Origin: a virus
Strand: one strand, 5' to 3'
Virus record (IMG/VR): IMGVR_UViG_3300025151_000232
Location: 1-27,372 of that record
DNA: 27,372 bases
In this document: positions 1 to 19,813 of the stretch, in pieces
How positions within the stretch are numbered: position 1 is the stretch's first letter
Layout: each line of letters opens with the position of its first letter
Position numbers and translations under genes: made by a program
Notes under the pieces: generated by a model
The model's input: the letters and a program-made list of their open reading frames with translations, nothing else
Databases searched by the model: none
What the model was told of the DNA's origin: nothing

Positions 1-1820
1 CCCCACATGCTTAACGCTGCATATAGAGCCCCTGTCTTACCTGCACCTGTGTCTCCTGTCAAAGATATACTGACACCAGAAGTAGAAGTATAAGGCATCA
101 ATGCAGAGCTAAGACCTGTTAACGCTACGAAAGCATGTATCTCTAAGCCCTCTTGATTGAGTTTATTAGCTACCTCTTTCCATTTATCAAAGCTACCTGC
201 TCGCACAATATGCCTAGCTATATTACGACATAAGGCAGATGTAGGACTACTGACTTCTTTGCCATTACGCTTAATTTCTAAATCGCCAATAACAAAAGCG
301 TCTTCTTTAGGTGTCCAACCCATCTGCGTTCTCATTCTTGAGGCTGCCTTATCAGCTTGTAGATAAGAACCCCATGCAACTAAATAATCCATAATAAGTT
401 TCCATTGGTTGTTTTTAGGGTTAAATAATACCCCATGACTAGATATCAACTTCCTCAGCTCATTACCATCATAGATTGCACTAAATGGTACATAGAACTC
501 TTCAGGTTCATCGTGAGGGGGGTCTACTTTCATCAGCATACAATTACCATCGTGTGCACTAATGACTCTCTTCAAAGAATAAAAATCATAGGTAGATACT
601 AGCTGTGTCTTTTGTTCTACTAAGTCTCCATTCTCATCAAATACTGGTTTAGGTTTAAAATATATACCACCTTCTTGCCCTCTATAAAATCCTTCTCTTT
701 CTATCTCTGCAGGTAATCCTTGTAAAGTAGTGACTACTAATGGTTTGCCGTTAGGTAGTGTTTGTACCTCAGTTTTTACAGGATTCATAGTAGTAGGTGC
801 AGGTACAAATACTTTACCTAATATTAAAGGATTAGTTATCTTTCCAAAGTGAGGACAGCTTGGGCAGACATCAGGGTTTAAGTTGTTAAATACCGTGCAT
901 GACTGTGGTTTATCTTGTGTCTGTGTTGCTTTTCTCTCTGTGCCCTCTCTACTATAGTCTGGGTAATCTTCAGATAATGCATGTATAGCTCTGTCCCTGT
1001 CTACACAATGTTGAGCAATAGACAGTCCTGCGTACCACAAAGGCTCAGGTAGTGATGCTCTGTTTCTAATTATATGTCTTATCTGAAGACATCCTTCACT
1101 AGATGTCTCATCTAAACTTTTGTCAGCAATCGTACTAAATTTTGAAGCGTAATTACTTAAGCCATTCATTTGCTTAGTTATCTCAGTCATCTTAGGACTT
1201 TTTAATATGTCTTCAAATGATATTGTGCCTAAAAACTCTTTAAACATATCAAACTTATATACCTTAATATCCCCACTTATTATTTTTGTTGGTGTTGGTG
1301 GGTTGGATTTAAAGTTAAATGTATTAGGACATCTAAGTATCCTAGCTTTATCTGCGGTTACAGCAGGGTCTATTTGTAACCCATTGTCAATACATAGTTG
1401 TTTAAATTTGTCTGCATATAGTTTCCATTCCTCTACAGAAACTGCAGTATCTAACATCCAATATGCATGGATACCATTCCCACTATCTACGACCACAGGC
1501 GGTGGTAGCTGTTGTGACTGTATAAATTCTCCTAAGGCGTTAACAGCTTCTCCCTGGGTGCTAAACTCCTTAGTATCCCCTACGTCTAAGTCTACAAAAA
1601 AAGACCTTAACGACTTAGCTTTCTTTCTACTGTGACCATCAAAATTAGCCATACCAATAAACACATGGCTATCGTGCTTTCTCTCCTCAACTCTATCAAC
1701 AAGTTCGTCAATAGAATCTACAAAGATATGTCGCATACGCTGTCCCTCACCTGCAGGTAACACAGCTACACAGTAAGTACCTTCATCAGGTAATAATTTA
1801 CTGTAAAACTCTACACTCAT
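1..1820 (-). CDS. PrimPol / DUF927 primase-helicase (C-terminus cut by window edge)
   Basis: Replicative primase-helicase, partial: 606 residues are visible and the frame runs off the left edge. The N-terminal third looks like an archaeo-eukaryotic (PrimPol, RepB-like) primase: catalytic DLD at residues 77-79, SGNGIHAYW at 113-121 with the conserved His, D151, and an ILRCPNTFNF block near 161-170. A CPSCPH Cys/His patch lies in the middle. The following region resembles DUF927, ending in the Walker A motif GDTGAGKT (589-596) just before the edge, so the ATPase core lies mostly outside. The ATG overlaps the upstream stop as ATGA, indicating translational coupling. It probably primes and unwinds phage DNA together with the polymerase and ssDNA-binding protein encoded upstream. 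The domain call rests on motifs read by eye. Confidence 0.82.
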   Translation of the reverse strand, partial: MSVEFYSKLLPDEGTYCVAVLPAGEGQRMRHIFVDSIDELVDRVEERKHDSHVFIGMANFDGHSRKKAKSLRSFFVDLDVGDTKEFSTQGEAVNALGEFIQSQQLPPPVVVDSGNGIHAYWMLDTAVSVEEWKLYADKFKQLCIDNGLQIDPAVTADKARILRCPNTFNFKSNPPTPTKIISGDIKVYKFDMFKEFLGTISFEDILKSPKMTEITKQMNGLSNYASKFSTIADKSLDETSSEGCLQIRHIIRNRASLPEPLWYAGLSIAQHCVDRDRAIHALSEDYPDYSREGTERKATQTQDKPQSCTVFNNLNPDVCPSCPHFGKITNPLILGKVFVPAPTTMNPVKTEVQTLPNGKPLVVTTLQGLPAEIEREGFYRGQEGGIYFKPKPVFDENGDLVEQKTQLVSTYDFYSLKRVISAHDGNCMLMKVDPPHDEPEEFYVPFSAIYDGNELRKLISSHGVLFNPKNNQWKLIMDYLVAWGSYLQADKAASRMRTQMGWTPKEDAFVIGDLEIKRNGKEVSSPTSALCRNIARHIVRAGSFDKWKEVANKLNQEGLEIHAFVALTGLSSALMPYTSTSGVSISLTGDTGAGKTGALYAALSMW

Positions 1821-2128
1821 ATCTGTATGCGTCCATCAGATTCTACAAACACTATAGCAGAGGCTATATCATTAGCAGGGAGCACTCCATCTGCTAACCC
1901 TTGCTCTACTGCATCCATAAATTTTATTACTTTCTGATGGTTTTGGTGTTTCATAGGTCCGCCTCTGAACCATGAATGCACTGTCATACGAGATGTGCCC
2001 ACTCCTTGAGCTACATATTTAATTGGTAAGTTTGCTTTTAGACATAATTTAGCTAACTGTATTCCTAAAATACTATCATCAGCTTTATCTAATCCTAAAA
2101 CAAATCTATTACTGTAAGGTCTTGGCAT
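1817..2128 (-). CDS. Small helix-turn-helix protein
   Basis: A 103-aa protein. Residues about 33-56 (NLPIKYVAQGVGTSRMTVHS) have the shape of a helix-turn-helix, so it probably binds DNA, as a regulator or replication accessory. I chose the ATG at 2128 rather than the one four codons earlier: a GGAG lies six bases before it and it overlaps the upstream stop as TAATG. The stop overlaps the primase start as ATGA. It therefore sits translationally coupled between the Cys-cluster protein and the primase. No partner domain is seen. The target site is unknown; the dispersed palindromes to the right are one possible target, but nothing in the sequence proves this. Confidence 0.7.
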   Translation of the reverse strand: MPRPYSNRFVLGLDKADDSILGIQLAKLCLKANLPIKYVAQGVGTSRMTVHSWFRGGPMKHQNHQKVIKFMDAVEQGLADGVLPANDIASAIVFVESDGRIQI

Positions 2129-2961
2129 TATTTTCTCCATTTATCCATTATTTTATTAACATCATCAGCTTCTTCAGCTGTCTTTACTTTTGCTTTCTCT
2201 TCATCTGAAGCTTCAAATGCTTCAAACTTAACAGGCTCTCTATCCTCTGTGTCATCAACTTGATACACAGTTAATTTAATAGCATTATGAGCCGCTTGAT
2301 TTTCTGCTTGGTCTTTTACAACCTCTAATACCCAATCCTCTGCTGCCTCTACAGGCGAAAACAATGCTCTGGGTTTAGCTGAGTTGGGGTCAAACTGCAT
2401 TCTAGTAATAATTCTACCCGCACTCACGTTATTATCAGCTAACATTTGGATGTATGTTTTGAATGGCCATTTACTTTGCTCCTCTTTACCAAAACAAGAG
2501 TTAGAAGGAAGAACTAATTCTAAAATATCTCCTTCTGGGTCGTTAGCTAAAACAATAGCTACTCTCCATGATAGTCTGCAAGAAGTTCCAACACCGCCAG
2601 AACCAGAGCCTCGCACACTGTTAGGACAAGTATGACAAGACTTGGCTTGGGGTTTCCTCACTTCTACATCTGGTTTTTTAGAGTCGTTTGACCAACATAC
2701 AGGGCTTACTCTTTTTCCTTCCTCATAAGAATCTTTATAATATACCCTTGATGGATTGTGTGCCATCTTGATAATTATTATATTCATTACAGCAGAGTCG
2801 GCTGTACTGACTTCCTTGCCCCCAACTATTTTTCTAAACACACCACCTCGTAAGGATATGCGTTTTGTCTGGTTAGAGAAGCTACTATTAGCAACAGCTA
2901 TAGTATCTTCATCTAACCCGATATTAGGGTTTCTCTCTAATATGCCCTTAAGTTTATCCAC
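2128..2961 (-). CDS. Unknown replication-block protein with a four-cysteine cluster
   Basis: A 277-aa protein I do not recognise by name. It starts at GTG, three bases after the stop of the ssDNA-binding gene. It carries Cys at about 89, 109, 112 and 128 (CHTCP in the middle), spaced like a zinc site, within an otherwise beta-rich stretch, followed by an acidic, lysine-rich tail (about 235-277). Position between the ssDNA-binding protein and the primase suggests a role in replication or recombination, for instance a single-strand binding or annealing accessory. An acidic C-terminal tail is a usual feature of ssDNA-binding proteins, which fits but is not proof. Confidence 0.75.
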   Translation of the reverse strand: MDKLKGILERNPNIGLDEDTIAVANSSFSNQTKRISLRGGVFRKIVGGKEVSTADSAVMNIIIIKMAHNPSRVYYKDSYEEGKRVSPVCWSNDSKKPDVEVRKPQAKSCHTCPNSVRGSGSGGVGTSCRLSWRVAIVLANDPEGDILELVLPSNSCFGKEEQSKWPFKTYIQMLADNNVSAGRIITRMQFDPNSAKPRALFSPVEAAEDWVLEVVKDQAENQAAHNAIKLTVYQVDDTEDREPVKFEAFEASDEEKAKVKTAEEADDVNKIMDKWRK

Positions 2962-2964
2962 TTG

Positions 2965-3636
2965 TTAATCTTTAGCTCCCCACTTATCTACGATGTCAGC
3001 AATATCTGTGCTTCCATCATCTTCTGGTTTGCTTTTAACAACTTCTGGTTCAGCTACTTTGATATCAGGAACTGCTGTAGGCTCATTAAAAACCTCTGCT
3101 CCCTCATCTTTTTCTTTCTGAACATAGCCTGTGGTTTTCTCAAAACCAAAACGACCTGCACCTTCCGAACCTTCAACAAGGGCAATAACTTGTACTGCTC
3201 TTAGTTTTAAAGATACCCCTGCTCCTATACTAGAAACAAAGTATGGATATAGTGCTGCGTTTACTCTGATTTCAGAGCCACCCCATATTTGTGTATCAAT
3301 CAAAGTCTCTCCGTTTGCATCAAAGATAGCAGGTTTATATGCTGCTTTTGATTTAAACTTAAAGATAACATTCCCTGTTGGTTTACCATCATCGTCTAAC
3401 TCATCTGCATAAGGTGGGTTAGCTGTCTTGAGGGTTTTCTTTTTTTGTTTCTTCATCTCATCTTTTAGATTTTCTGAAAAAACTTCATTGATAGTGTCAA
3501 TGATAGGCTGTGCCTTTTCTTTAGAAAGTACAAGATTAACTTTGTACTCTCCATCCTTATTGTACTCTGTATCTGGTTTACTTAACCATGGATATAGAGC
3601 TACACCTTGCGGTGTGGTTATGGTTTGTTTTGCCAT
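2965..3636 (-). CDS. Phage single-stranded DNA-binding protein (gp2.5/DUF2815-like)
   Basis: A 223-aa protein. The N-terminal pattern (TPQGVALYPWLSKPDTEYN, then GEYKVNLVLSK) and the later blocks GNVIFKFKSKAAYKP and GVSLKLRAVQVIAL match my recollection of the OB-fold ssDNA-binding proteins of phages related to T7 gp2.5 and DUF2815. The C-terminal 50 residues are acidic and end in a short hydrophobic/charged tip (DIVDKWGAKD), as expected of an SSB that recruits partners. The start has a strong SD (AAGGAG, eight bases before ATG). It lies within the block polymerase - nuclease - helicase - SSB - primase and would coat single-stranded phage DNA during replication and recombination. Confidence 0.75.
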   Translation of the reverse strand: MAKQTITTPQGVALYPWLSKPDTEYNKDGEYKVNLVLSKEKAQPIIDTINEVFSENLKDEMKKQKKKTLKTANPPYADELDDDGKPTGNVIFKFKSKAAYKPAIFDANGETLIDTQIWGGSEIRVNAALYPYFVSSIGAGVSLKLRAVQVIALVEGSEGAGRFGFEKTTGYVQKEKDEGAEVFNEPTAVPDIKVAEPEVVKSKPEDDGSTDIADIVDKWGAKD

Positions 3637-9783: not shown

Positions 9784-10080
9784 TTAAATGTTACTTTCAC
9801 TTGATAGTATTAAACACTCTAGCATGTCTACATTCTTCTCGTCAATAACTAATGATTGACCTAGTGAATTTTTTATATCGTTGAGGTTTTTTTCTTGAAG
9901 TGCTGTGGGTTTGTTGCCATTGGCTTTGCATTCAATGCCAATGAATTTACCACGATAAGATACGATGAAGTCTGGTACACCACTTGAGCCATAACCATTC
10001 GTTGAGGGCATACAATAATAACAACTAAGTTCTTTGAGTATATGTTTGACTTTCTGCTTGACTTTCTTCTCTGGTGTCAA
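9784..10080 (-). CDS. VRR-NUC domain nuclease
   Basis: A 98-aa stand-alone VRR-NUC nuclease (PD-(D/E)XK fold). TPEKKVKQKVKHILKEL opens the domain; GSSGVPDFIVSYRGKFIGIE holds Asp37 and Glu50, with Lys52 in ECK completing the D-ExK active site; the typical TALQ follows. The length is normal for phage VRR-NUC proteins, which act as structure-specific nucleases. The start is TTG, decided by AAAAGGA with a seven-base spacer just before it; no in-frame ATG precedes the domain. It overlaps the upstream gene by 56 bases. Confidence 0.88.
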   Translation of the reverse strand: MTPEKKVKQKVKHILKELSCYYCMPSTNGYGSSGVPDFIVSYRGKFIGIECKANGNKPTALQEKNLNDIKNSLGQSLVIDEKNVDMLECLILSSESNI

Positions 10081-10462
10081 TACTAATTCCTTTTAGTTCG
10101 GATAGTTCATCTTCGGACATGATTATAACATATATACTATCAGATACACACCAACCAATGTATTTAAACTCTGGATTGTTTTGTGTATGATTTTCAGGTA
10201 GGTAGCAATCTAATTCGTTGAATAATTCATCATCTTTGTAAGCATTCCATTCTTCTTTCGGAATAGATTTAATCATAGCTAACTTTGATTTAATAAAGGT
10301 GGGTAGTGTTTTCGGCTGGAATATTCTTTTAGTGTTATCACCAATGTAAACATTATATGTGTATGATTTTTGTAGTGAGTTCACTACAATTTCCATTTCA
10401 AGAATTACCATATAGTTATCTTGAAATGGATAGGGACTGTGTAATATTTGATTAGCTCTCAT
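10025..10462 (-). CDS. Hypothetical protein containing a TGTAGTGA palindrome in its coding sequence
   Basis: A 145-aa protein not recognised. It is mixed alpha/beta, with a block at WCVSDSIYVIIMSEDE and a polar C-terminus. Start is uncertain: the ATG at 10462 has no SD and lies in the loop of a small hairpin; ATGs at 10411 and 10396 are alternatives. Residues 25-31 (IVVNSLQ) are encoded by one copy of the dispersed 18-bp palindrome, so the N-terminal sequence here may be dictated by a DNA or RNA signal. The 3' end overlaps the VRR-NUC gene by 56 bases. Confidence 0.55.
   Translation of the reverse strand: MRANQILHSPYPFQDNYMVILEMEIVVNSLQKSYTYNVYIGDNTKRIFQPKTLPTFIKSKLAMIKSIPKEEWNAYKDDELFNELDCYLPENHTQNNPEFKYIGWCVSDSIYVIIMSEDELSELKGISIDTREESQAESQTYTQRT
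10371..10388. repeat. Dispersed palindrome, in-gene copy 1
   Basis: TGTAGTGA-GT-TCACTACA, perfect 8-bp arms (9 with flanks). It lies inside the 10025-10462 gene. Together with flanking bases it is identical over about 26 bp to the copy at 14483-14500. Confidence 0.85.
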
Positions 10463-10480
10463 AGTATAAGAGCTAGTGTA

Positions 10481-11218
10481 CTATTTTTTCTTTTTGAAAG
10501 GAATACCTTTTTCTACTGCCTCAATTTGTCTTTTAGCTATCTGATATGTTACTGCATTTTTAATAGCATTTGTGCCATAAGTACAAAAGGCAACATTAGT
10601 TTTTCTTCTACCCCTTGCTGTTACATATCCAATACCACTTGAATGAGGTTGTATTCTATCCACTGATATATTAGTCATTGGTCTTAATTCTGTCTTAATA
10701 TCCCAATGTATAAAAGTCATTGGCTCTCCTGTGTAATAATCTACACAACCATAAGTCTCTACATAGTCGTAAAAGTATTTTACAAACTTTTGCCACCCTG
10801 TACTTGTTTTAGTATCTACAAAAGAGCAAGGTATGTTTTGTTCCTTACATTTAGTTTTCATACGATTGTATGAATATATAAGAAATCCCTCTGCGACTCC
10901 ATTCTCTCTCAACAAACGAATTTCATCTCTTTTCTTTTTGTTACCTTTTTTAAGTACCTCTTGACCTTTCGGTGTTTTATGATATGCATTTTTCTTCATC
11001 TTTATTTCCTCGTCATTAAATTGATAGTATCTTTTAGAATAATGTTTCTCTTGTTTCTGACCTTTCGTTGTATTACGATAAGTTTGTTTAGCTGTCTTTA
11101 GAGATTGTTCACCCTCAGGAGTTTTTGCCCAGAGTTTTTTATACTCTTTTCTGTACTCCTCATAGCTATCAAAATCTTCCCTATTTAAGCCAAGTTTATT
11201 AATATAAGTTCTTTTCAT
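10481..11218 (-). CDS. HNH-type endonuclease with N-terminal repeats
   Basis: A 245-aa protein. The N-terminal 100 residues carry repeated TPEG / TTKG / TPKG units in a Lys-rich helical context (near 33, 51 and 82), a DNA-contacting repeat often seen before phage HNH domains. The C-terminal part has YTGEPM (162-167), SVDRIQP (185-191), then NVAFC with N208 and C212 and a closing NAIKN. This fits the His-Me/HNH pattern with Asp in place of the first His. It may be a free-standing homing-type nuclease. The start follows the shared leader GGAGTAAAAACTATG, and the repeat element at 11248-11298 lies upstream. Confidence 0.75.
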   Translation of the reverse strand: MKRTYINKLGLNREDFDSYEEYRKEYKKLWAKTPEGEQSLKTAKQTYRNTTKGQKQEKHYSKRYYQFNDEEIKMKKNAYHKTPKGQEVLKKGNKKKRDEIRLLRENGVAEGFLIYSYNRMKTKCKEQNIPCSFVDTKTSTGWQKFVKYFYDYVETYGCVDYYTGEPMTFIHWDIKTELRPMTNISVDRIQPHSSGIGYVTARGRRKTNVAFCTYGTNAIKNAVTYQIAKRQIEAVEKGIPFKKKK

Positions 11219-11247
11219 AGTTTTTACTCCGAATTTTTCTTCGTTAT

Positions 11248-11298
11248 TTGCGATTTAAGGTACTTAAAAAAACTTTCGCTTATCCAAGTACCCCCCAA
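11248..11298 (-). repeat. Intergenic GGTACTT element, copy 1
   Basis: About 50 bp between two leftward genes, nearly identical to 12741-12790. Inverted arms GGTACTT (11259-11265) and AAGTACC (11286-11292) enclose a 20-base loop with a run of seven A (T on the transcript) and CTTTCGCTT. It ends 30 bp before the nuclease gene start. It could be a structured leader or processing site; it lacks a T-run after the stem, so it is not a classic terminator. Confidence 0.7.
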
Positions 11299-11299
11299 A

Positions 11300-12511
11300 T
11301 TATTGTGGTTTAGCCATTAGTAGCCATACGATTGAAAAAGGATTAAGTTTAGCACCATATACACCACGAGGTGCATAGTAACAACCTAGCTCTTCAATCC
11401 AATTACTATCATCGTATCTACCATATTCAGACTTAAAGTATTCTCGTTCAATCTTGTTCCTATCTTCTTTGTTTTCCCAATCTTGTAAATAAACTTTAAG
11501 CATTGTGAGTGTAGGTTTTAAACTATCAAAGAAATCTAGCTGTTCCAAATGACGCACCCTTTGTGTCTTATGTATTATTAGCTGACCAAACTTCTTATCA
11601 TACTGTCTAAAATCTCTACAATCATTATTGTTTGCATAATATACATCTTCGCCATTAGGTACTTTATAATCACCTTGATGTTCGTATGCCTCGCCAACTA
11701 TCCAACCACCACTATGAGTTATACCAATCGCAGTAAACTTATTATCAAGTTCTGCTTTAACTTCTTTAAATATAGAATGAACTTTATTATCAAGTTCTTC
11801 ACAACTTTTAAACTGTTTTGCGTAATGCTCATTAGTAGCATGGGATATAGAATTTTTATTACCATACAAACTGTTTAATACCTCAGCAAGTTTATCTCTG
11901 TTATCATAAGTTAACTCGCTTATAGCAGAGTCATGTTTTGATATAGCTTTAGATAAAGATAATTCCTCAACTCTAAAATCTCGTATCATATCTTTAGTAT
12001 TAATTTTCATAGCCTCGTAGTTATCTCTGTTTGATAAGGGTTTCCATTCCTTTCGTCTCAATGTCTTTAAGACCTGTGATACTTTGTTTGAATTAATGGT
12101 ATATCTATCCCAAGTATTTCTACCTCTATCTTTGATATGATAGTTAGCTTGAAAACAAAAACTATCATCATCATAATATACAACAGCTTGAGGTATGCCT
12201 TGATAGTCTAATACAAATGCCTCGTTATAAAATATAGTAACATTATCACTATAACCTACCTTATTATCTTTGTTTAATTGCTCGTCTTGTTTAGCAGAGT
12301 AATTAATATCATTAAATTTGTCGTAGTCTTTTGTTTCGGCAAACCCTCTTTCCCAATCATCATCATATCTATACTTAGTAAGCATAAGTCTTTGACTTAC
12401 TCGTAGGTCATACCTGTAACATAAGTCTTTTACCAGAGGAAAAACTTTACTCTCACTCAAACTCTGTTCCAGCTCTGGCGTGTGCATATTGTCATTTATA
12501 TATTTATTCAT
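11300..12511 (-). CDS. Hypothetical 403-aa protein
   Basis: A 403-aa protein with no motif I recognise. It is soluble, rich in Tyr, Asp and Asn, with blocks such as DNVTIFYNEAFVLDYQGIP and QAVVYYDDDSFCFQANYHIK near 90-128, a helical centre (KAISKHDSAISELTYDNRDK, about 190-210) and GITHSGGWIVGEAYEHQGD near 268. It starts two bases after the preceding small gene, so both are probably one transcript. Between the GGTACTT elements it forms, with the 69-aa gene, a discrete unit. Function unknown. Confidence 0.75.
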   Translation of the reverse strand: MNKYINDNMHTPELEQSLSESKVFPLVKDLCYRYDLRVSQRLMLTKYRYDDDWERGFAETKDYDKFNDINYSAKQDEQLNKDNKVGYSDNVTIFYNEAFVLDYQGIPQAVVYYDDDSFCFQANYHIKDRGRNTWDRYTINSNKVSQVLKTLRRKEWKPLSNRDNYEAMKINTKDMIRDFRVEELSLSKAISKHDSAISELTYDNRDKLAEVLNSLYGNKNSISHATNEHYAKQFKSCEELDNKVHSIFKEVKAELDNKFTAIGITHSGGWIVGEAYEHQGDYKVPNGEDVYYANNNDCRDFRQYDKKFGQLIIHKTQRVRHLEQLDFFDSLKPTLTMLKVYLQDWENKEDRNKIEREYFKSEYGRYDDSNWIEELGCYYAPRGVYGAKLNPFSIVWLLMAKPQ

Positions 12512-12513
12512 AG

Positions 12514-12723
12514 TTATTTACCCCATTGTTTATTTTTAAGATTAGTTTCTGTTGGTTTACTTTCATAAATACCAACTGCCATAATTTCTACACGATTAGG
12601 CTCACCCCAAGTGAAATGATTTTGCACTAAAGTTTCTGCCTCTTCATTACTATTAGCCATTACAGAAATCGGCTTATAGTGTTGTGTAATGTATACTTCG
12701 TACTTTTTCTTTTCTTCATTCAT
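12514..12723 (-). CDS. Hypothetical 69-aa protein
   Basis: A small protein beginning MNEEKKKYEVYITQHYKPIS; residues about 7-50 (KYEVYITQHY, NSNEEAETLVQNHF, VEIMAVGIYE) suggest a small alpha/beta fold of the kind phage 'sensor-like' 70-residue proteins have. SD GAGGT lies seven bases before the ATG. It lies immediately upstream of the 403-aa gene with a two-base gap. Function unknown. Confidence 0.7.
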   Translation of the reverse strand: MNEEKKKYEVYITQHYKPISVMANSNEEAETLVQNHFTWGEPNRVEIMAVGIYESKPTETNLKNKQWGK

Positions 12724-12740
12724 AATTTTTACCTCGTAGT

Positions 12741-12790
12741 TTGCGTTTTAAGGTACTTAAAAAAACTTTTGCTTATCATAGTACCCCCAA
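12741..12790 (-). repeat. Intergenic GGTACTT element, copy 2
   Basis: Near-identical to 11248-11298: TTGCG then TTTTAAGGTACTTAAAAAAA, then AGTACCCCC. Inverted arms GGTACT (12752-12757) and AGTACC (12780-12785). It lies between the DUF3150-like gene and the 69-aa gene, next to a TGTAGTGA palindrome. Confidence 0.7.
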
Positions 12791-12793
12791 AAA

Positions 12794-12811
12794 TGTAGTG
12801 ATTTCACTACA
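12794..12811. repeat. Dispersed palindrome, intergenic
   Basis: TGTAGTGA-TT-TCACTACA, perfect arms, four bases past the stop of the DUF3150-like gene and 70 bases before the next start. Confidence 0.9.
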
Positions 12812-12815
12812 ATAC

Positions 12816-13745
12816 TTAACTGAACTTAGATAATATATCATCAATACCTTGCTTAACTTCTGCCCTAGTGCTATCACTATCTCTTAGTAGTTCAGTAGAT
12901 ACTCCACTCATTACTTTTTCTATGTCATTAGCAACATTAGATAAGTTACTGTCGTTAGAGGGATTAAAGTCTTTGGTAGTTTTTACCCAATCTCTAATCT
13001 CATTGACTAGCTTTCTTTTAATAGGTTTTTTCTTGTAAGTAGTATTACCATTCTTATCTACTTTTTCATCTTCATTAATGTTAGAAGATAACCTACTTAG
13101 AAAATCTACTATCCTTGCTTTTTGTTGTGCAAGTACCTTATCCACAATATCATTCGCTTGTTGCTGATACTCTGCTTTCAAGTCATCTGCTGTATCTTGC
13201 GATACTTGACATCTGAAATCGTGGCTCGGTACTTCTGCCACATACAATCGCATTTTAAATTTTTGTCGTAATGTCTCAACACTTGGATAGTCATTCTTGT
13301 CAAACATATCACCTTGTTTGAATGCCTCATCACTTACAAGTGTTTGATAGTTCTCAAGGAAGTCCTCTACTGCTGTATTAAACTCACTCTCATACTTATC
13401 ATACTCTTTTTTGAACTTCTCAAGGTCAACTGTTGGTAATAAGTTTTGTGTCTTATTCCAACTGTAAGTAGACTCTTTCGCCCATTTATGTATCAACTGT
13501 CGTAACTTCACAATCCTATGGTGTTTAGGATTTTTAGCAAAGAGATACTTAGTAAACTTACCTGTACCCAACTCTGCTTTTTTCATAGTCGTTACTTCAT
13601 CAGAGATACCTCTGTCTTGCTTGGTTGCAGTCCATACATTCACATCAACTGACACCAACATACTTGATGTAGCCAATGACACAATGTGTTCTGGTTGCTG
13701 CAGTTCGTAACTTTCAGTCGTTACATTACTTTCTTTTAGTCTCAT
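12816..13745 (-). CDS. DUF3150-like protein of the AAA/vWA module
   Basis: A 309-aa protein. The opening LVSVDVNVWTATKQDR, the helical centre with LLPTVDLEKFKKEYDKYESE, the block DYPSVETLRQKFKMRL and PSHDFRCQVSQDTADDLKAEY match my memory of DUF3150, a phage family of unknown function often encoded beside CobS-like AAA ATPases and CobT-like vWA proteins, as here. It is mostly alpha-helical with a Lys-rich insert near 235-250. The start follows the shared leader GGAGTAAAAACTATG. It probably forms part of a complex with the two upstream gene products. The role of the complex is unknown. Confidence 0.75.
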   Translation of the reverse strand: MRLKESNVTTESYELQQPEHIVSLATSSMLVSVDVNVWTATKQDRGISDEVTTMKKAELGTGKFTKYLFAKNPKHHRIVKLRQLIHKWAKESTYSWNKTQNLLPTVDLEKFKKEYDKYESEFNTAVEDFLENYQTLVSDEAFKQGDMFDKNDYPSVETLRQKFKMRLYVAEVPSHDFRCQVSQDTADDLKAEYQQQANDIVDKVLAQQKARIVDFLSRLSSNINEDEKVDKNGNTTYKKKPIKRKLVNEIRDWVKTTKDFNPSNDSNLSNVANDIEKVMSGVSTELLRDSDSTRAEVKQGIDDILSKFS

Positions 13746-13771
13746 AGTTTTTACTCCATAGTTTAAATTAT

Positions 13772-14956
13772 TTAATCATACTGAACTACTCTACTTCCAG
13801 CAGTTCCCTCAAAGTTTGTCCTGTCTGTTACAATATATAGTGTAGGTGTAGACATATTCCATTGAATATCATGTTCCACCCAACCGTCAGTAAACACAAT
13901 AATTGCCTCAGCTTTTATCTGTTCCTTAGTAATGTATTCACTAACACAAGATAGTCTAGTCCCACCTCCACCTGCAACCTTAAGTAACTTATGTAAGTCT
14001 TGGTATTGGTCTGGTCTGAATGTCTGCTCACTACATACATTATAATCCCACCACAATATGCGTATAAAGTCTGGTGTAACTGTGTCTACGATACTCTGCA
14101 ACTCGGTGGCAAAGATTGTGAGTTCATCTTGTCCAATACTTCCAGAAGTATCACATGCAATCACTAGCTCACCTACACTTTCGTTTTCCATAGAGGGAAG
14201 ATACAAGTCATTAGGTAACATTCGCTTGTTAAACTTTCGCCAAGTAAACTCATCATTACCCTTACAGGTTGATGATATAAACTCTCTCATCACTTCTCGC
14301 CAATCAATCTTCGGCTCAAAGAGTTCATCAATGGCTCTAGGTATCTTGCCACCAACTTTCCCAGCAAGTATGCTACCCTCTTTGAGTGCATTCTCAATCT
14401 TCTGTGTCATTTCTTTTTGCTCTTGAGGTGTCATCTCTTGACCACTACCCTCAAAGTCATGCTCATCAAGAGTATCAAGATTTGTAGTGAGTTCACTACA
14501 ATTTCCGTCTGAGTTATCTTGCTTTTCCATATCTTTAAGTATCTCGTTGACTGACCAATTATGATACTTCTCTTCATACAAACAACCCTCTGGTAGCTGA
14601 CACAAGTCCTTATCTTCCAAGTGATTGATAACATCATTGACCACATAATCAGCACATACATTCATGTTATGTGGATTTTTGCGATACTCTTTTTTAAATC
14701 TACCCACATGATTAAGTGCCACATGTAAGTTCTCATGTAGTATCAATGCTCGTAACTCTAAGTCTGATAGTCCCTCAATAAACTTTCTACCATAATATTT
14801 ATTAAAGCCGTCAGTCTTAGCAGTCGGACAATCGTCAACCACCTCTGACTTACCCAACATCATCACTCCACTATACAGAGCTGTCTCTGGGTGTTTCATC
14901 AAAGCAATATGAGCTTTCTTAATTCTATCCTCTGGGGATAGTCTGTGTGTCGTCAT
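13772..14956 (-). CDS. Metallopeptidase-like / vWA (DUF2201, CobT-like) protein
   Basis: A 394-aa protein. N-terminal metallopeptidase-like domain with HENLHVALNH (His74, Glu75, His78, His83: HExxHxxxxH). A polar linker follows (about 143-180). The C-terminal vWA domain has a complete metal-ion-dependent adhesion site: DTSGS (269-273), Thr333 in GGGGTRLS and Asp357 in VFTDGW. This is the DUF2201 / vWA-like architecture paired with MoxR or CobS-like ATPases. I start at 14956, after GGAGAAATACT; a longer frame to 14998 overlaps the ATPase gene without SD support. The linker residues 153-158 are encoded by a copy of the dispersed palindrome. Confidence 0.9.
   Translation of the reverse strand: MTTHRLSPEDRIKKAHIALMKHPETALYSGVMMLGKSEVVDDCPTAKTDGFNKYYGRKFIEGLSDLELRALILHENLHVALNHVGRFKKEYRKNPHNMNVCADYVVNDVINHLEDKDLCQLPEGCLYEEKYHNWSVNEILKDMEKQDNSDGNCSELTTNLDTLDEHDFEGSGQEMTPQEQKEMTQKIENALKEGSILAGKVGGKIPRAIDELFEPKIDWREVMREFISSTCKGNDEFTWRKFNKRMLPNDLYLPSMENESVGELVIACDTSGSIGQDELTIFATELQSIVDTVTPDFIRILWWDYNVCSEQTFRPDQYQDLHKLLKVAGGGGTRLSCVSEYITKEQIKAEAIIVFTDGWVEHDIQWNMSTPTLYIVTDRTNFEGTAGSRVVQYD
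14483..14500. repeat. Dispersed palindrome, in-gene copy 2
   Basis: TGTAGTGA-GT-TCACTACA inside the vWA gene, in the stretch encoding the linker between its two domains; read there as C-S-E-L-T-T. It shares about 26 identical bases with the copy at 10371 but is read in a different frame. Confidence 0.88.
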
Positions 14957-14975
14957 AGTATTTCTCCTGTCATAA

Positions 14976-16034
14976 TTACATAATGTTAAAGTTATCAACA
15001 GACCAGTCTGCTATCTCTTTATTACCCCTAGCAATCTTGACTGTGCGTGTATTTCTCATCATCATAGTAAAGAAAATAGCTTGTATTTCGCTACTCTTAA
15101 TTCTACCAATGTACTTCATAAATGCTGTCAAGTCGCTTTGCTGTTTGATTTTATCAACAGCTTGGAACATCAACATCAGTTGAGCAGAAATACTCTCTGG
15201 CATATTGGTTGTTTCTGGTTTTTCAAGTATCTCGGTAAAGGTTGGTAGTTCTTTTTCAAGTCGCAAGAATGCTGACATATCGGCACTCGCACTCTGACCA
15301 ATCGTACCAGCAAGAGCCACCATTGTTGCATTGTCGCCTAGCTTATCCCTGTTATCCACAATCACACTAGCTTTTTCTAGTGAACGAGGACTGACAAAAG
15401 ATAGCATTGGTTTTTTAGGATTGAAGATGTATGGATTATCTTCTTGCCCACTATCCCTGTAACTTGCAAGGACTCTAGGGAATGTATGCACAAAGGCTCG
15501 TATCAAAGGACTTACTCCATTTTCAGTCGCCCACACTAGCCAATCTTCTACTTCTGGTTTTTGCATTTCTAAGATACACACTCTGTTACCTGCGTGTGCT
15601 AACATAGTGTCGCCCAATCCGTCTGACTGATTGTTTGATGTACCAAATACAAGACTGCCTTTCGGTAGAGGTGTATCGCCAACAGTCCTCTCAAGCATTA
15701 GTCTAGTAAAGATAACTTGCAGTAACTTTGGTGATTTCATAAACTCATCTAGCAGTATGACCTTAGGTTTATCGCTATCAAGTTTAAACAATGAGCCAAC
15801 ATAGCTCTCTAATGTTTTGGTATCGTGATTAGGGATAGTCATAGCAATATCTGACATATCCTTGACTGGACAATCTACATAGATGTAATCGTATTTGTCC
15901 CCTAGTTTTTTCTCAATCGCTTTAAGTAGGCTAGTCTTACCACACCCTGCCTCACTTTGTATGATTGGTGTTAGAGTTTCTGCGATAGTAGGTATCAAAG
16001 TCTCTAACTCTTTTATGGTTACTCTCTGTTGCAT
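14976..16034 (-). CDS. MoxR/CobS-like AAA+ ATPase
   Basis: A 352-aa single-domain AAA+ ATPase. Walker A EAGCGKTS (28-35), Walker B VILLDEF (92-98), sensor 1 VFGTSNN (129-134), and an SPRSLEKAS block that fits the sensor 2 region. The pattern is that of MoxR/CobS-type ATPases, which act as chaperone-like partners for vWA proteins. In cyanophages related proteins are labelled CobS, but no cobalamin genes are seen here. It is the first gene of the AAA - metallopeptidase/vWA - DUF3150 unit, driven by the consensus promoter at 16134-16162, with a palindrome in its leader and GGAGTAAAAACTATG at its start. Confidence 0.9.
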   Translation of the reverse strand: MQQRVTIKELETLIPTIAETLTPIIQSEAGCGKTSLLKAIEKKLGDKYDYIYVDCPVKDMSDIAMTIPNHDTKTLESYVGSLFKLDSDKPKVILLDEFMKSPKLLQVIFTRLMLERTVGDTPLPKGSLVFGTSNNQSDGLGDTMLAHAGNRVCILEMQKPEVEDWLVWATENGVSPLIRAFVHTFPRVLASYRDSGQEDNPYIFNPKKPMLSFVSPRSLEKASVIVDNRDKLGDNATMVALAGTIGQSASADMSAFLRLEKELPTFTEILEKPETTNMPESISAQLMLMFQAVDKIKQQSDLTAFMKYIGRIKSSEIQAIFFTMMMRNTRTVKIARGNKEIADWSVDNFNIM

Positions 16035-16065
16035 AGTTTTTACTCCTGTGGTTTCCCACTATTTT

Positions 16066-16083
16066 TGTAGTGAAATCACTACG
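16066..16083. repeat. Dispersed palindrome in the AAA gene leader
   Basis: TGTAGTGA-AA-TCACTACG, one mismatch in the last base. It lies 32 bp upstream of the AAA gene start and about 45 bp after the predicted transcription start. Confidence 0.88.
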
Positions 16084-16133
16084 ATTAGTTAATAAATCTT
16101 TATGTATCCTGTAAAGTTTTTACTGTAATAAAT

Positions 16134-16162
16134 ATTATACCACTTTACATATAATATGTCAA
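16134..16162 (-). promoter_or_regulatory. Consensus sigma-70 promoter for the AAA/vWA/DUF3150 module
   Basis: Minus strand: TTGACA (16157-16162), 17-base spacer, TATAAT (16134-16139), both hexamers perfect. The spacer TATTATATGTAAAGTGG differs from that of the 17613-17641 promoter at only two positions. The -35 lies just after the stop of the upstream gene, so this starts a new unit. Confidence 0.9.
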
Positions 16163-16163
16163 G

Positions 16164-16625
16164 TTACTGTGTTAATTTATTGTCTGGGTCAAACTTAACA
16201 TCTGTAGTTTCAATATAAGGTGTTGATATATAAGCCAAGTCGTACCCATACGCACCATAGCACTCTTCTACTACATCATTAGTCTCTTCACCTACTCGCA
16301 GAAAACAAGCCGACATTCCAAACTTATTGTCCTCGCAGTAATGACTTGCTTTACCAATGATACGATTATAACTCTGTACCCATTCATCTGTGTCATACCA
16401 CTTGACATCATCAAACCTCACATATAAAGAGCAGTTTTTCATATCAATGCCCTCTTCAGCATTTGTCCCCTCACCATTTTTACCATTCGTAAGGTCTCTC
16501 ATAGCCATATCACATTTAGGGTCAGCTTTGAGTTCAGCGATAAACAAGTGCCAATTTCTGATACTTTCCTCATCTTCATGGTCGTCCATTTGTACAGCTA
16601 TCAAAACTTCACTACGATAACCCAT
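16164..16625 (-). CDS. MGYRSEV-type conserved phage protein
   Basis: A 153-aa acidic protein opening MGYRSEVLIAVQ. This start is typical of a conserved phage family of unknown function that I recognise by its MGYRS(D/E)V head. The remainder has an RFDDVKWYDTDEWVQSYNRI block near 70-89 and CYGAYGYDLAYISTPYIETT near 122-141. It is the last gene of the coupled small-gene operon; its ATG overlaps the stop of the membrane-protein gene as TAATG. No catalytic motif is apparent. Confidence 0.75.
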   Translation of the reverse strand: MGYRSEVLIAVQMDDHEDEESIRNWHLFIAELKADPKCDMAMRDLTNGKNGEGTNAEEGIDMKNCSLYVRFDDVKWYDTDEWVQSYNRIIGKASHYCEDNKFGMSACFLRVGEETNDVVEECYGAYGYDLAYISTPYIETTDVKFDPDNKLTQ

Positions 16626-16735
16626 TATAACCCCCCTACTCTATGCACATAGAGTCCTATTCCACAAGACACCATAACCAACAATGGTATGAGTACAAGT
16701 ATCGTTAGCTTTAAATACAATATAAATTCATTCAT
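16625..16735 (-). CDS. 36-aa single-span membrane protein
   Basis: A very short gene: 36 residues, almost all of it one hydrophobic segment (ILYLKLTILVLIPLLVMVSC, about 5-24) followed by GIGLYVHRVGGL, so probably one transmembrane helix with a basic tip. Supported by a strong SD (GGAGG, six bases before the ATG), an eight-base overlap with the gene before it and a TAATG overlap with the gene after it. It could be a small membrane effector or lysis-type peptide, but nothing fixes its role. Confidence 0.7.
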   Translation of the reverse strand: MNEFILYLKLTILVLIPLLVMVSCGIGLYVHRVGGL

Positions 16736-16898
16736 CTTTCACCTCCAATGGTATTACTTTATCGTATACACTCAAGGTATACCCTAATTGTTCTAGGTCT
16801 TTATTTAAGAAATGACTACACATACCCCTTTCAAAATTGGTACTACATTTTCTTAATGCTTGGTCTACTTCTTTCTGTAATTTATTTATTTTACTCAT
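16728..16898 (-). CDS. Hypothetical 56-aa protein
   Basis: A 56-aa helical protein (MSKINKLQKEVDQALRKCST, then CSHFLNKDLEQLGYTLSVY) with two Cys and an N-terminal helix that could form a coiled coil. The ATG overlaps the upstream stop as ATGA and is preceded by GGGAGG nine bases away; the end overlaps the membrane-protein gene. Evidence for reality is the SD plus coupling on both sides. Function unknown. Confidence 0.68.
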   Translation of the reverse strand: MSKINKLQKEVDQALRKCSTNFERGMCSHFLNKDLEQLGYTLSVYDKVIPLEVKDE

Positions 16899-17110
16899 CT
16901 GTGAAATCCTCCCTTGTTGTTAATACCCTCTAAGTCTTTTAAGTCGCTAATCACGACATAGTTTGATTTATGCATTGGTGCAATCGTATGCTTTACTCGT
17001 TTGGCTTGAGTTTCCCCACAGTTTAGGCAAATATCGTACCCAGCTTGTAATCTTTTCTTACTGTATGGACTCCCACAGTCAGAGCAGATTGGTTTGATTG
17101 ATTTACTCAT
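16895..17110 (-). CDS. Zinc-ribbon protein
   Basis: A 71-aa protein with a zinc ribbon: CSDCGSPYSKKRLQAGYDIC then LNCGE, giving Cys 9, 12, 28 and 31 (C-x2-C-x15-C-x2-C). Related ribbons occur in phage regulators and in DksA/TraR-like proteins, but no such family can be claimed. Its leader holds a palindrome 20 bp before the ATG, then two copies of AAAAACTATGAG, the second containing the start codon after GAGG. First of four tightly coupled small genes. Confidence 0.75.
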   Translation of the reverse strand: MSKSIKPICSDCGSPYSKKRLQAGYDICLNCGETQAKRVKHTIAPMHKSNYVVISDLKDLEGINNKGGFHR

Positions 17111-17129
17111 AGTTTTTCCTCATAGTTTT

Positions 17130-17147
17130 TGTAGTGATATTACTACA
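17130..17147. repeat. Dispersed palindrome before the zinc-ribbon gene
   Basis: TGTAGTGA-TA-TTACTACA (one mismatch), 20 bp upstream of the start at 17110 and just past the stop of the 17152-17523 gene. Confidence 0.85.
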
Positions 17148-17151
17148 TTTA

Positions 17152-17523
17152 TTATCGTGTTAAGAATGCGACCTCTTGTCTTGCTTTGCGTTCCATATAT
17201 TTCATCAAAGAGCCACAACCAATGTAGCTTTTCATTTCATCAGCAGTATCTAGCCAACAACCACCATTTTCTATACTAGGTAAAGCACTAGGTCTACATT
17301 GTGATTGGTGTCTTGAAGTTGAAGATGAATAGCTATCGTTACTCCCTATCCATATACCAGCTTGTCGGTCATAGATATACATAGGGAAGTGATAGCCATA
17401 GCTGTATACGACATATAACCCCTCGTCATCAAATGACACTTTATTTTCTGCAAAGGTATTGCTACCCTCAAAGACTTTTAGTTCGTCAACATATTGACTT
17501 GCGTTTTTGTTTGCTACTTTCAT
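17152..17523 (-). CDS. Conserved phage protein of unknown function (SYGYHFPMYIYD family)
   Basis: A 123-aa protein. The blocks VYSYGYHFPMYIYDRQAGIW and SNDSYSSSTSRHQSQCRPS are ones I have seen in phage proteins of unknown function (possibly DUF8033-like). The rest is a helical C-terminus ending YMERKARQEVAFLTR. I start at 17523, where the shared leader GGAGTAAAAACTATG occurs; the longer frame to 17556 begins inside the palindrome and is rejected. It is driven by the consensus promoter at 17613-17641 and leads the small-gene operon. Confidence 0.75.
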   Translation of the reverse strand: MKVANKNASQYVDELKVFEGSNTFAENKVSFDDEGLYVVYSYGYHFPMYIYDRQAGIWIGSNDSYSSSTSRHQSQCRPSALPSIENGGCWLDTADEMKSYIGCGSLMKYMERKARQEVAFLTR

Positions 17524-17542
17524 AGTTTTTACTCCTGTTTTC

Positions 17543-17560
17543 TGTAGTGATTTCACTACA
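17543..17560. repeat. Dispersed palindrome in the 17152-17523 leader
   Basis: TGTAGTGA-TT-TCACTACA, perfect arms, 20 bp before the start codon, with TAACTAAT on its upstream side as in the AAA gene leader. Confidence 0.9.
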
Positions 17561-17612
17561 ATTAGTTAGTATTAGTGTGATAAGAATTGTGTATATTTTT
17601 ACCACTATAACT

Positions 17613-17641
17613 ATTATACTACTGTACATATAATATGTCAA
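17613..17641 (-). promoter_or_regulatory. Consensus sigma-70 promoter for the small-gene operon
   Basis: Minus strand: TTGACA (17636-17641), 17-base spacer TATTATATGTACAGTAG, TATAAT (17613-17618). Both hexamers are perfect. Start of transcription is predicted near 17606, so the palindrome at 17543-17560 lies in the untranslated leader. Confidence 0.9.
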
Positions 17642-17690
17642 GTAGCATATAACTTTTATGTAAAAAAGTCGTACAGTTAATTTACTACTT

Positions 17691-17730
17691 CAGAGTCTTC
17701 GCTATCTGTACAGAGTCTTCGCTATCTGTA
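17691..17730. repeat. 20-bp tandem duplication
   Basis: CAGAGTCTTCGCTATCTGTA occurs twice in direct succession (17691-17710 and 17711-17730), identical. It lies about 50 bp upstream of the small-gene operon promoter. Confidence 0.95.
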
Positions 17731-18046
17731 AATTTATTATTATATAAATCTCACTATCATATAAAACTATTTGCCAAGGGGGATTTTGAGGGGTTAGCTA
17801 TTCTATGGTAGTGCATAACGCACAGCGATAAATACATAGTGAGAGCCAGTCCGAGATGCGATGGAAATTTAGTGTCCCTATCCAAATACTTAGAGGGGGT
17901 TTCCCATCTCAGCCCCAGCCCACTTACTGTACATATTATGGTAGAAACTTTACTTATAGAAAAACATAGTGAGAAGCCGTCCCGAGCGTTAGTGTACTTT
18001 GTGGGGTGGGTGGTCGTATTCTTTAAAGTGTATAACTCTTTGTTTT

Positions 18047-18064
18047 TGTAGTGATATTACTACA
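18047..18064. repeat. Dispersed palindrome, orphan copy
   Basis: TGTAGTGA-TA-TTACTACA, identical in core to the copy at 17130, but with no gene start within reach on the minus strand. It abuts AGTTCAC repeats (18064-18070, 18071-18077). Confidence 0.85.
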
Positions 18065-18213
18065 GTTCACAGTTCACAAGGGGGTTAACTTTACTTATAG
18101 AACTGGAACTGGACTTATTGTTTTATGTAAAGTAAACTTAAGTGTCTGTATCTATTAGTATTTCTATAGTTATATTATATTATATATTAGTTTATTATAC
18201 TTATTTTTTTAGT

Positions 18214-18347
18214 AGTTCATAAGTTCACTCTTTTTTGATAGGACAATACCTTTCTGCAACAAATAATTACATCGCAAAAACCAGACGAAAGACCACAGAA
18301 AAACCAAAAGTTATATCCTATTTAAAAAAAGTGTGAACTTGTGAACT
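18214..18347. repeat. Long imperfect inverted repeat built on AGTTCAC
   Basis: Left arm 18214-18243 and right arm 18316-18347 are complementary at about 25 of 30 positions: AGTTCA(T/C)AAGTTCAC, C-T6/7 tract, then TAGGA. The loop is 72 bases. Each arm contains two tandem AGTTCA units; further copies lie at 18064-18077 and 18407-18413. It could fold as RNA or extrude as a cruciform. Confidence 0.75.
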
Positions 18348-18530
18348 TTATAACAATATCAAACACTTAAGTATGAACTGAAAGTGGAACTTTAGGAACG
18401 CAAATCGTGAACTTTAACTTTAGTCAAAGAACTGGTTATGTTAAGAACTGGTTACTATAGTAACTGGTACTATAATAAATAAAAAAGACTTTACATATAA
18501 AAAAGAAAACTAAAGTTTACATATAAAAAA

Positions 18531-18584
18531 TTGGCGAAAAATTTTAGACAAAAAAAATTGGCGAAAAATTTTAGACAAAAAAAA
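18531..18584. repeat. 27-bp tandem duplication
   Basis: A unit beginning TTGGCGAAAAATTTTAGACA and followed by A7 or A8 occurs twice, at 18531-18557 and 18558-18584. It lies directly downstream of the terminator of the 225-aa gene, whose T-run is formed by the second copy's A-run. Confidence 0.9.
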
Positions 18585-18606
18585 TCCCCTCAGAAATTCT
18601 GAGGGG
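18577..18606 (-). terminator. Intrinsic terminator of the 225-aa gene
   Basis: Perfect stem CCCCTCAG / CTGAGGGG (18586-18593, 18599-18606; up to 10 bp with the inner pairs), followed on the minus strand by eight T. It lies about 30 bp after the stop at 18639, so this gene is a monocistronic unit. Confidence 0.93.
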
Positions 18607-18638
18607 ATAAAGTGCGACAAGGTGTCGCTATTAGGAAT

Positions 18639-19316
18639 TTATAACATTTTTTGGATATCCTTAAATGTATATTTTGACTTATCCATTTCAAGAAATACCT
18701 CAGCAAGTTTTTTAAGTTTACCTTGTGCCAATACACTTTCTTGTATACTAACTTTGGCACTTGTAGATTTTCCTTTATTGCCTATGGTTTTATGTTGTTG
18801 AGCTAATGCCTTAGCAATCTGCTCAAACTCCTTAAGAGTAACCTTATTAACCTCAACCTCAACTGTCTCAACCTCTGGACTATTTACAGCTCTTAAGTCT
18901 GCTTTAAATTCAGCCCATTTGTCTTTAATGTTGGTATCTAAATTTCTCATAAACCCTAATGGCTTTGAGTTACTTCTAAAATATGCTGATACTTCTGCAT
19001 TAAAGTCTTTTTTCAAAGTTGGTGCGTCTTTCATGCAATCAGTAATTTTAAAATCGTAGGTTTTATCCTTAATTTTTATTCCCTTAAGATTGATTTTATT
19101 TTTAGTTAAAAACTTATTAATAAAAGTCTCGTATAATTCCTTATGGATTTTAGGGAATGCTGTTTTAACTTGACCAAATGTAGAGCAATTTTTTAATTTA
19201 GGCTCAAAATCATCAAGCATTTTAGCTTGTGCTATTTGTTGAGCTTGTATGTCTCGTCCTTGTTCATTCAAGTCAAACCATTTACTAGCTATTTCTTTAA
19301 TATTTACTTTTTTCAT
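18639..19316 (-). CDS. 225-aa early protein of unknown function, monocistronic
   Basis: A 225-aa, Lys-rich, largely helical protein with no family I recognise. Residues 1-75 are helical; a central block LKGIKIKDKTYDFKITDCMK (about 78-97) could be a beta hairpin; residues 150-170 are Val/Glu-rich (VETVEVEVNKVTLKEFEQIA). The gene stands alone: palindromes in its leader (19348, 19374, with another at 19488), SD GAGGA about seven bases before the ATG, and its own strong terminator. Such isolation next to the repeat-rich tract would suit a regulator or origin-binding protein, perhaps one that recognises the palindromes. No HTH is visible, so this is a guess. Confidence 0.8.
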   Translation of the reverse strand: MKKVNIKEIASKWFDLNEQGRDIQAQQIAQAKMLDDFEPKLKNCSTFGQVKTAFPKIHKELYETFINKFLTKNKINLKGIKIKDKTYDFKITDCMKDAPTLKKDFNAEVSAYFRSNSKPLGFMRNLDTNIKDKWAEFKADLRAVNSPEVETVEVEVNKVTLKEFEQIAKALAQQHKTIGNKGKSTSAKVSIQESVLAQGKLKKLAEVFLEMDKSKYTFKDIQKML

Positions 19317-19347
19317 AATATATCCTCTATTTAAAGTTTAAAATTAT

Positions 19348-19365
19348 TGTAGTGATATCACTACA
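19348..19365. repeat. Dispersed palindrome, perfect copy
   Basis: TGTAGTGATATCACTACA, a fully symmetrical 18-bp palindrome 32 bp upstream of the 225-aa gene start: the same offset as at the AAA gene. Confidence 0.93.
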
Positions 19366-19373
19366 GCTTTTTA

Positions 19374-19396
19374 CTGTAGTAAAATTTCTACTACAG
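19374..19396. repeat. Dispersed palindrome, widened variant
   Basis: CTGTAGTA, seven-base centre, TACTACAG. Eight-bp arms; the centre is longer than in the other copies. It is eight bases from the perfect copy, making a tandem pair of sites. Confidence 0.75.
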
Positions 19397-19487
19397 TTAA
19401 TAATCAGTTTACCAGAAAATAAGTAAAGTACAACCCTTATATCACTTTAATTTTATTTTAATCATATCAATAACTTATAAACTTTTT

Positions 19488-19505
19488 TGTAGTGGAATGA
19501 CTACA
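19488..19505. repeat. Dispersed palindrome, degenerate variant
   Basis: TGTAGT-GGAATG-ACTACA: six-bp outer arms kept, inner bases changed. The flanks (T-run before, ATT after) are like those of the other copies. Confidence 0.65.
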
Positions 19506-19813
19506 ATTCTCAAATGAAATTTAAAATTGAAAACTATCAGTAAATTAGAGTATTCTAATATACCCACATATCCCCTATATCCCACATCACGCATAGCACT
19601 AGCGTTTACTATATACAGTTAGATTTACATAAATAATTGGCAAAATATGTAAAGCCAAAGACCTACCCTCGTTATATGTAAAGTAGCCCCCCTTATGAAA
19701 TAAAAAGGCAAACCAAAAAAATTTTCTGCAAAATTTTCAAAAACCAAGGTATACTGATTGAAGCCATAAAGCATGGGAGAAAAGCTTACCTAAGTTTCAA
19801 CAAGGGAGGCAGT

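Follow-up and report, generated by a model that had tools for sequence, protein, structure and literature searches.

A 27,372-nucleotide (nt) stretch of viral DNA, positions 1 to 27,372 of IMG/VR virus record IMGVR_UViG_3300025151_000232 (hereafter, the window), carries a set of short palindromes in its leftward early region, and related phages carry sets of their own. We found that these sets are near-uniform within each genome, occupy fixed places between relatives, and have switched in sequence as a set. Since the sets are uniform and their members switch together, a trans-acting factor that reads the sequence is needed. We propose, with moderate confidence, that the palindromes are scattered targets of a DNA-binding protein that is encoded by the phage and specific to their sequence; the likeliest candidate is the 225-amino-acid (aa) product of the gene at 18639-19316, at the top of the early operon.

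Palindromes that keep their places while their sequence switches

The first-pass annotation had noticed one palindrome inside two genes, read in two different frames, and both points held. Exact copies occur at 10371-10388, in a gene for a 145-aa protein, and at 14483-14500, in a gene for a protein resembling von Willebrand factor A (vWA). The alignment of the two extends over 26 identical bases (14481-14506 at the second copy), and on the minus strand they are read in different codon phases, giving EIVVNSLQK in the 145-aa protein and GNCSELTTN in the vWA protein. Both represent the 20-bp palindrome TTGTAGTGAGTTCACTACAA (Table 1). A pattern search with TGTAGTGANNTCACTACA, allowing up to three mismatches, returned nine matches in the window, compared with on average 0.23, and never more than 2, in dinucleotide shuffles of the window. 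All nine were located within 10371-19505, the leftward early region, and the same search found no copy in the terminase and portal genes, which lie to the right on the opposite strand. By match start, two copies are coding (10371 and 14483), one is intergenic (12794), one lies in a conserved non-coding stretch (18047), and five are upstream of minus-strand starts (16066, 17130, 17543, 19348 and 19488).

Searches with the vWA and 145-aa proteins gave 39 loci in relatives. The palindrome type of the window, TGTAGTGA, was present in the 58.9-kb relative G1 (eight sites, none of them in its late region), in G4 and in several fragments. Relatives lacking it were found to have sets of their own, namely TCGTCGTGAGCTCACGACGA in G2, TTCCCGTNAGCNNACGGGAA in G3 and TGTATCGCATACGATACA in G5. 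The palindrome types, each phage type having a sequence of its own, include TCGTCGT, TTCCCGT, TGTATCG, TGTCGA, CCCACG and GTTACCT. More distant vWA phages carried TGTCGA, TGTCGT, CCCACG and TTCCACG types, many of them with one located in the linker of vWA. In RHph_TM3_14A (GTTACCT type), a cultured Rhizobium phage with the same set of genes (ATPase, vWA, PolA, exonuclease and SNF2 helicase), 37 sites of GTTACCTNNNNAGGTAAC were counted against about one expected, and many of these are inside genes. The Pelagibacter phages HTVC023P/HTVC027P, 023Pt_psg01 and DSL-LC04, which are related by their terminase, showed no comparable set in the parts read.

Within one genome the arms are 89-98% alike, and the central six bases usually vary. 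At orthologous sites, identity to the arms of the window is 86-100% in genomes of the same type and 50-79% in other types, even where the flanks of the site are 78-94% identical. Palindromes of four types share their alignment columns in the 145-aa gene, between conserved flanks, with no indel in three and one of 6 nt in the remaining one, and the encoded residues change from type to type (EIVVNSLQ, DFVVSSRR, EVPVSKRE and DNVSHTIH). As had been noted, the vWA copy falls in the variable linker that joins the DUF2201_N domain to the VWA-like domain. This linker holds the type-specific palindrome in G1, G4, G2, G3, L024-L028 and many CCCACG-type phages, the copies in the last group having two mismatches, while G5 has no site within vWA and one just upstream of it instead. 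Because orthologous palindromes keep their place while sequence and residues differ, the identity is kept at the nucleic-acid and not the protein level, in agreement with the first-pass annotation. Its further proposal of an inserted element, which would appear as an insertion missing from homologues and as a common boundary in the flanking DNA, did not survive the alignments. Relatives carry their own palindromes at the same aligned columns without a matching indel, in the vWA gene of G3 the same bases (GGAAA ... AATCTTGA) flank a palindrome of its own type, and the length of the vWA linker varies, but not as the presence or absence of a unit.

The top gene of the operon as candidate recognition factor

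The 225-aa gene lies behind the two uppermost sites. Orthologues are present in G1 and G4, and none was detected by BLASTP in G2 and G3, where the positional counterparts are a 214-aa and a 220-aa gene, respectively; the G5 contig ends before this position, so the absence of a BLASTP match there is uninformative. The palindrome is present in all six viral contigs in which the gene for the 225-aa protein was detected. Moreover, every contig with at least two exact palindromes encodes this protein, and the other contigs have single copies. Within the marine group, a different palindrome is accompanied by a different or unrecognisable top gene, and the G2-type gene co-occurs with CGTCGT palindromes in two further contigs (L073 and L074). 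It was predicted before the search that a TGTATCG contig would carry a different top gene, and contig L090 matched this prediction: over 3.2 kb on the terminase side it is 93% identical to G4, a genome of the TGTAGTGA type, with neighbouring proteins at 97-99%, and yet all five of its sites are TGTATCG and its top gene differs from that of G4. In CCCACG and TTCCACG phages, the counterpart genes form a family, A5 (18 sequences). Several CCCACG-type phages carry tandem A5 paralogues (e.g. L036:3448-4977), for which a second specificity is possible, and TTCCACG-type phages carry a single one. The sole HTH_3-like gene (1817-2140) cannot set the type, because it is 98-99% identical in G1 and G2, which differ in palindrome. 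Taken together, these comparisons support a link between palindrome type and the 225-aa gene by co-segregation.

The G3 220-aa protein may be a remote relative of the 225-aa protein (phmmer E-value of about 1e-4 for the window-G3 pair, in a small set), and the L090 top protein matched the window family with an E-value of about 4e-4 against 29 sequences. Homology between other pairs of top proteins was not significant by sequence, and homology among the top-of-operon proteins of different types is suggestive only. Neither the 225-aa nor the G2-type protein had a match in annotated phages, and the 225-aa family had none in the bacterial genomes searched.

DNA sites, RNA hairpins and other explanations

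Two of the leader sites follow consensus sigma-70 promoters (Table 1), and a promoter-to-site spacing of 49-53 bp was seen in the window, G4, G1, G2 and G5. If transcription starts about 6-7 nt after the -10 element, the predicted position of the sites is about +43 to +64. Judged by this position, the leader sites are transcribed and are too far downstream to block promoter binding. The two promoters themselves sit in a 48-bp repeat that is 85% identical between its copies (17596-17643 and 16117-16164). Intrinsic terminators were considered and rejected, as most sites have no T run on the minus strand and only 12794 and 19348 were flagged there. No phage RNA polymerase was found in the related records, and no integrase, resolvase or ParA (PF00589, PF00239 and PF13614) in nine of them, several being fragments, which points to the host polymerase as the probable transcriber of the early genes and gives no indication of lysogeny. 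In RHph_TM3_14A (L083), the only match of the gene annotated as a putative integrase is to DUF927, and the record yielded no hit to an integrase family.

Several observations weigh against the proposed reading. The 225-aa protein has no Pfam or PHROG match and no recognisable DNA-binding domain, and its AlphaFold2 model is poor (pLDDT 46). The A5 family was modelled well (pLDDT 89, pTM 0.66), with N-terminal helices, short strands, a long helix and C-terminal helices in this order; the A5 model found no match in the PDB or a viral library with Foldseek, and although its predicted elements follow one another much as in the poor 225-aa model, the sequences do not establish common ancestry. Linkage of neighbouring DNA could explain part of the co-segregation, and with no integrase found, lysogenic immunity is not an obvious role. 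Finally, the sites are on the transcribed side just ahead of ribosome-binding sites, and all seven G5 sites share one core orientation, both of which an RNA element would fit too.

These last points speak for RNA hairpins in early transcripts, bound by a type-specific RNA-binding protein that would act through antitermination, as in lambda N-boxB, through leader processing or through translation control. The predicted leader sites, at about +43 from their promoters and typically ending 14-22 nt before the start codon, would be part of the transcript, and each site can fold as a hairpin of 5-8 bp (-5 to -12 kcal/mol). The boxB of lambda-type phages is likewise type-specific and adjoins the N gene. 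An RNA stem should favour G-U mismatches. However, among about 125 distinct sites the arm mismatches comprised 29 G-U and 36 A-C pairs, and deviations were shared evenly by the 5' and 3' half-sites (56:54). With mismatches that prefer neither G-U nor one half-site, the palindromes resemble DNA targets of a dimer more than RNA hairpins. Recurrent A-C variants are moreover conserved across relatives (TGTAGTAATATCACTACA), and up to 37 copies, many within genes, are more than antitermination needs. The wobble and polarity comparison thus weakened the RNA reading, which we regard as unlikely overall, although the leader position and the G5 orientation speak in its favour.

It is a little less likely still that the sites are DNA operators of the proposed kind and that the protein binding them is not the 18639-19316 product. 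Co-segregation alone would be compatible with a linked small gene, and most early genes are of unknown function; against this, the presence of the 18639-19316 gene tracks the type in all marine genomes and contigs where the two can be compared. Centromere-like, replication or nucleoid-organising sites of the ParB-parS kind seem improbable. Dispersed, near-perfect palindromes of parS-like length would suit such a function, but a search that did not extend to ParB families found no ParA (PF13614) in the nine related records, several of which are fragments, and the marine-group sites do not occur outside the early region and go with leaders and promoters. We give even less credence to promoter hairpins for an N4-type virion RNA polymerase. 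The vWA and ATPase genes do have relatives in N4-like phages, and a 2021-aa protein of G1 partly matches the virion RNA polymerase profile; this match covers only profile positions of about 2005-2287, compared with 560-3398 in a true N4-like phage, there is no PF00940 match in the relatives of the window, consensus sigma-70 promoters explain the transcription start better, and the N4-like phages SABI and D505 have no comparable palindrome sets in the parts read. The partial profile match and the failure to find a phage RNA polymerase led us to rule out this candidate. The 2021-aa protein (L062:12523-18585) has ART-PolyVal and DarB-like matches and is apparently a polyvalent protein. Least credible is the mobile palindromic repeat of the first-pass annotation, which identical copies in several contexts, one of them in a protein linker, might suggest but which is excluded by the alignments of both genes described above and fits poorly with the copy-free late region of G1.

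Table 1. Positions in the window of the palindromic sites, the genes that hold or adjoin them, and the promoters
Feature	Position	Strand	Remarks
145-aa early gene of unknown function	10025..10462	-	holds copy 1
Palindromic site inside 145-aa gene (copy 1)	10370..10389		exact TTGTAGTGAGTTCACTACAA; other palindromes at same aligned position in G2, G3, G5
Palindromic site, intergenic	12793..12812		70 bp before start of 12514-12723 gene
vWA-like gene (DUF2201_N + VWA-like DUF2201)	13772..14998	-	holds copy 2; true start probably ATG near 14956
Palindromic site in vWA gene linker (copy 2)	14482..14501		exact TTGTAGTGAGTTCACTACAA
Palindromic site, leader of AAA ATPase gene	16065..16084
Consensus sigma-70 promoter TTGACA-17-TATAAT	16134..16162	-	palindrome (16066) starts 49 bp past -10
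Palindromic site, leader of 16895-17110 gene	17129..17148
Palindromic site, leader of 17152-17522 gene	17542..17561
Consensus sigma-70 promoter TTGACA-17-TATAAT	17613..17641	-	palindrome (17543) starts 51 bp past -10
Palindromic site in conserved non-coding stretch	18046..18065
225-aa top-of-operon gene, candidate recognition protein	18639..19316	-	co-segregates with palindrome type
Palindromic site, leader of type-specific 225-aa gene	19347..19366
Second site upstream of 225-aa gene	19487..19506		less perfect

The stretch of about 1 kb at 17560-18640 contains one palindrome and no convincing gene. Its DNA is conserved in every relative, the main blocks being 72-89% identical, and it is possibly an origin or a non-coding RNA. 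An Rfam search gave no match for this stretch and none for the palindromes as a structured RNA element. Leader copies at 11234-11311 and 12727-12804 are 83% identical, and the one before the 10481-11218 gene has lost its recognisable palindrome. The sole match of this gene among the relatives was a weak one (26%), in G2.

Proposed role and comparison with known systems

According to the proposed DNA-operator model, the 18639-19316 protein would recognise the palindrome (e.g. the TTGTAGTGANNTCACTACAA duplex) as a dimer and would act on transcription by the host RNA polymerase. Because the leader sites are predicted at about +43 to +64, past a promoter-blocking position, and others lie inside genes, we suggest that the bound protein would stop or slow the elongating polymerase, as stoperators do. 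The early operon would thereby be shut down or timed, and superinfecting phages of the same type would perhaps be silenced. The concerted change of all sites would then reflect selection for a new specificity. More broadly, and only tentatively, we suggest a new specificity system in which phages of several hosts, apparently without lysogeny genes, use dispersed palindromic roadblock sites, some of them conserved in coding sequence. The sites would be recognised by an early protein that evolves fast and has a novel DNA-binding fold, and phages would escape one another by swapping the gene for this protein and changing all of their sites.

If this is true, dispersed-operator control would extend to phages without recognisable lysogeny genes, raising the question of its role in the lytic cycle, whether early shut-off or exclusion of like phages. 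G4 and L090 would form a natural swap pair from which to learn how an entire set of sites acquires another specificity, and the DNA-binding activity of candidate families without a known domain would be new. Work on the sites could make use of RHph_TM3_14A, which is in culture. We found no report of these palindromes in the literature searched.

Most known stoperators come from temperate phages that infect actinobacteria. Those among the Cluster A mycobacteriophages (L5, Bxb1 and TipsytheTRex) carry many copies of a short site inside and outside promoters and at the repressor locus, with a consensus for each subcluster that cognate repressors discriminate (PMC6550527, PMC9283540). Their 13-bp stoperators lack symmetry, point in the direction of transcription and are the targets of a helix-turn-helix (HTH) repressor that binds as a monomer (PMC9283540). 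The palindromes described here are similar in having many copies per genome (nine in the window, eight in G1 and 37 in RHph_TM3_14A), a consensus that differs between relatives together with the top-of-operon gene, here the putative repressor gene, and sites at the candidate gene's own locus. They differ in being palindromes of 18-20 bp without half-site polarity, with a single core orientation only in G5, in being conserved inside two coding sequences, in types that differ far more, and in the lack of a recognised integrase, ParA or HTH repressor.

The lambda N/boxB (nut) system has type-specific hairpin sites downstream of early promoters and near a type-specific early gene, with few sites per genome. 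The present sites can also form hairpins and have the same arrangement, but they are many per genome and their mismatch pattern does not favour RNA pairing. Lambdoid cI immunity regions have palindromic dimer sites of exchangeable specificity that are clustered at promoters. Palindromic sites and exchangeable specificity recur here, whereas the present sites are spread over 9 kb in leaders and genes and the candidate protein has no cI-like domain. Our best reading is a stoperator-like dispersed operator system with exchangeable, lock-and-key specificity, in which the key is probably a protein of unknown kind.

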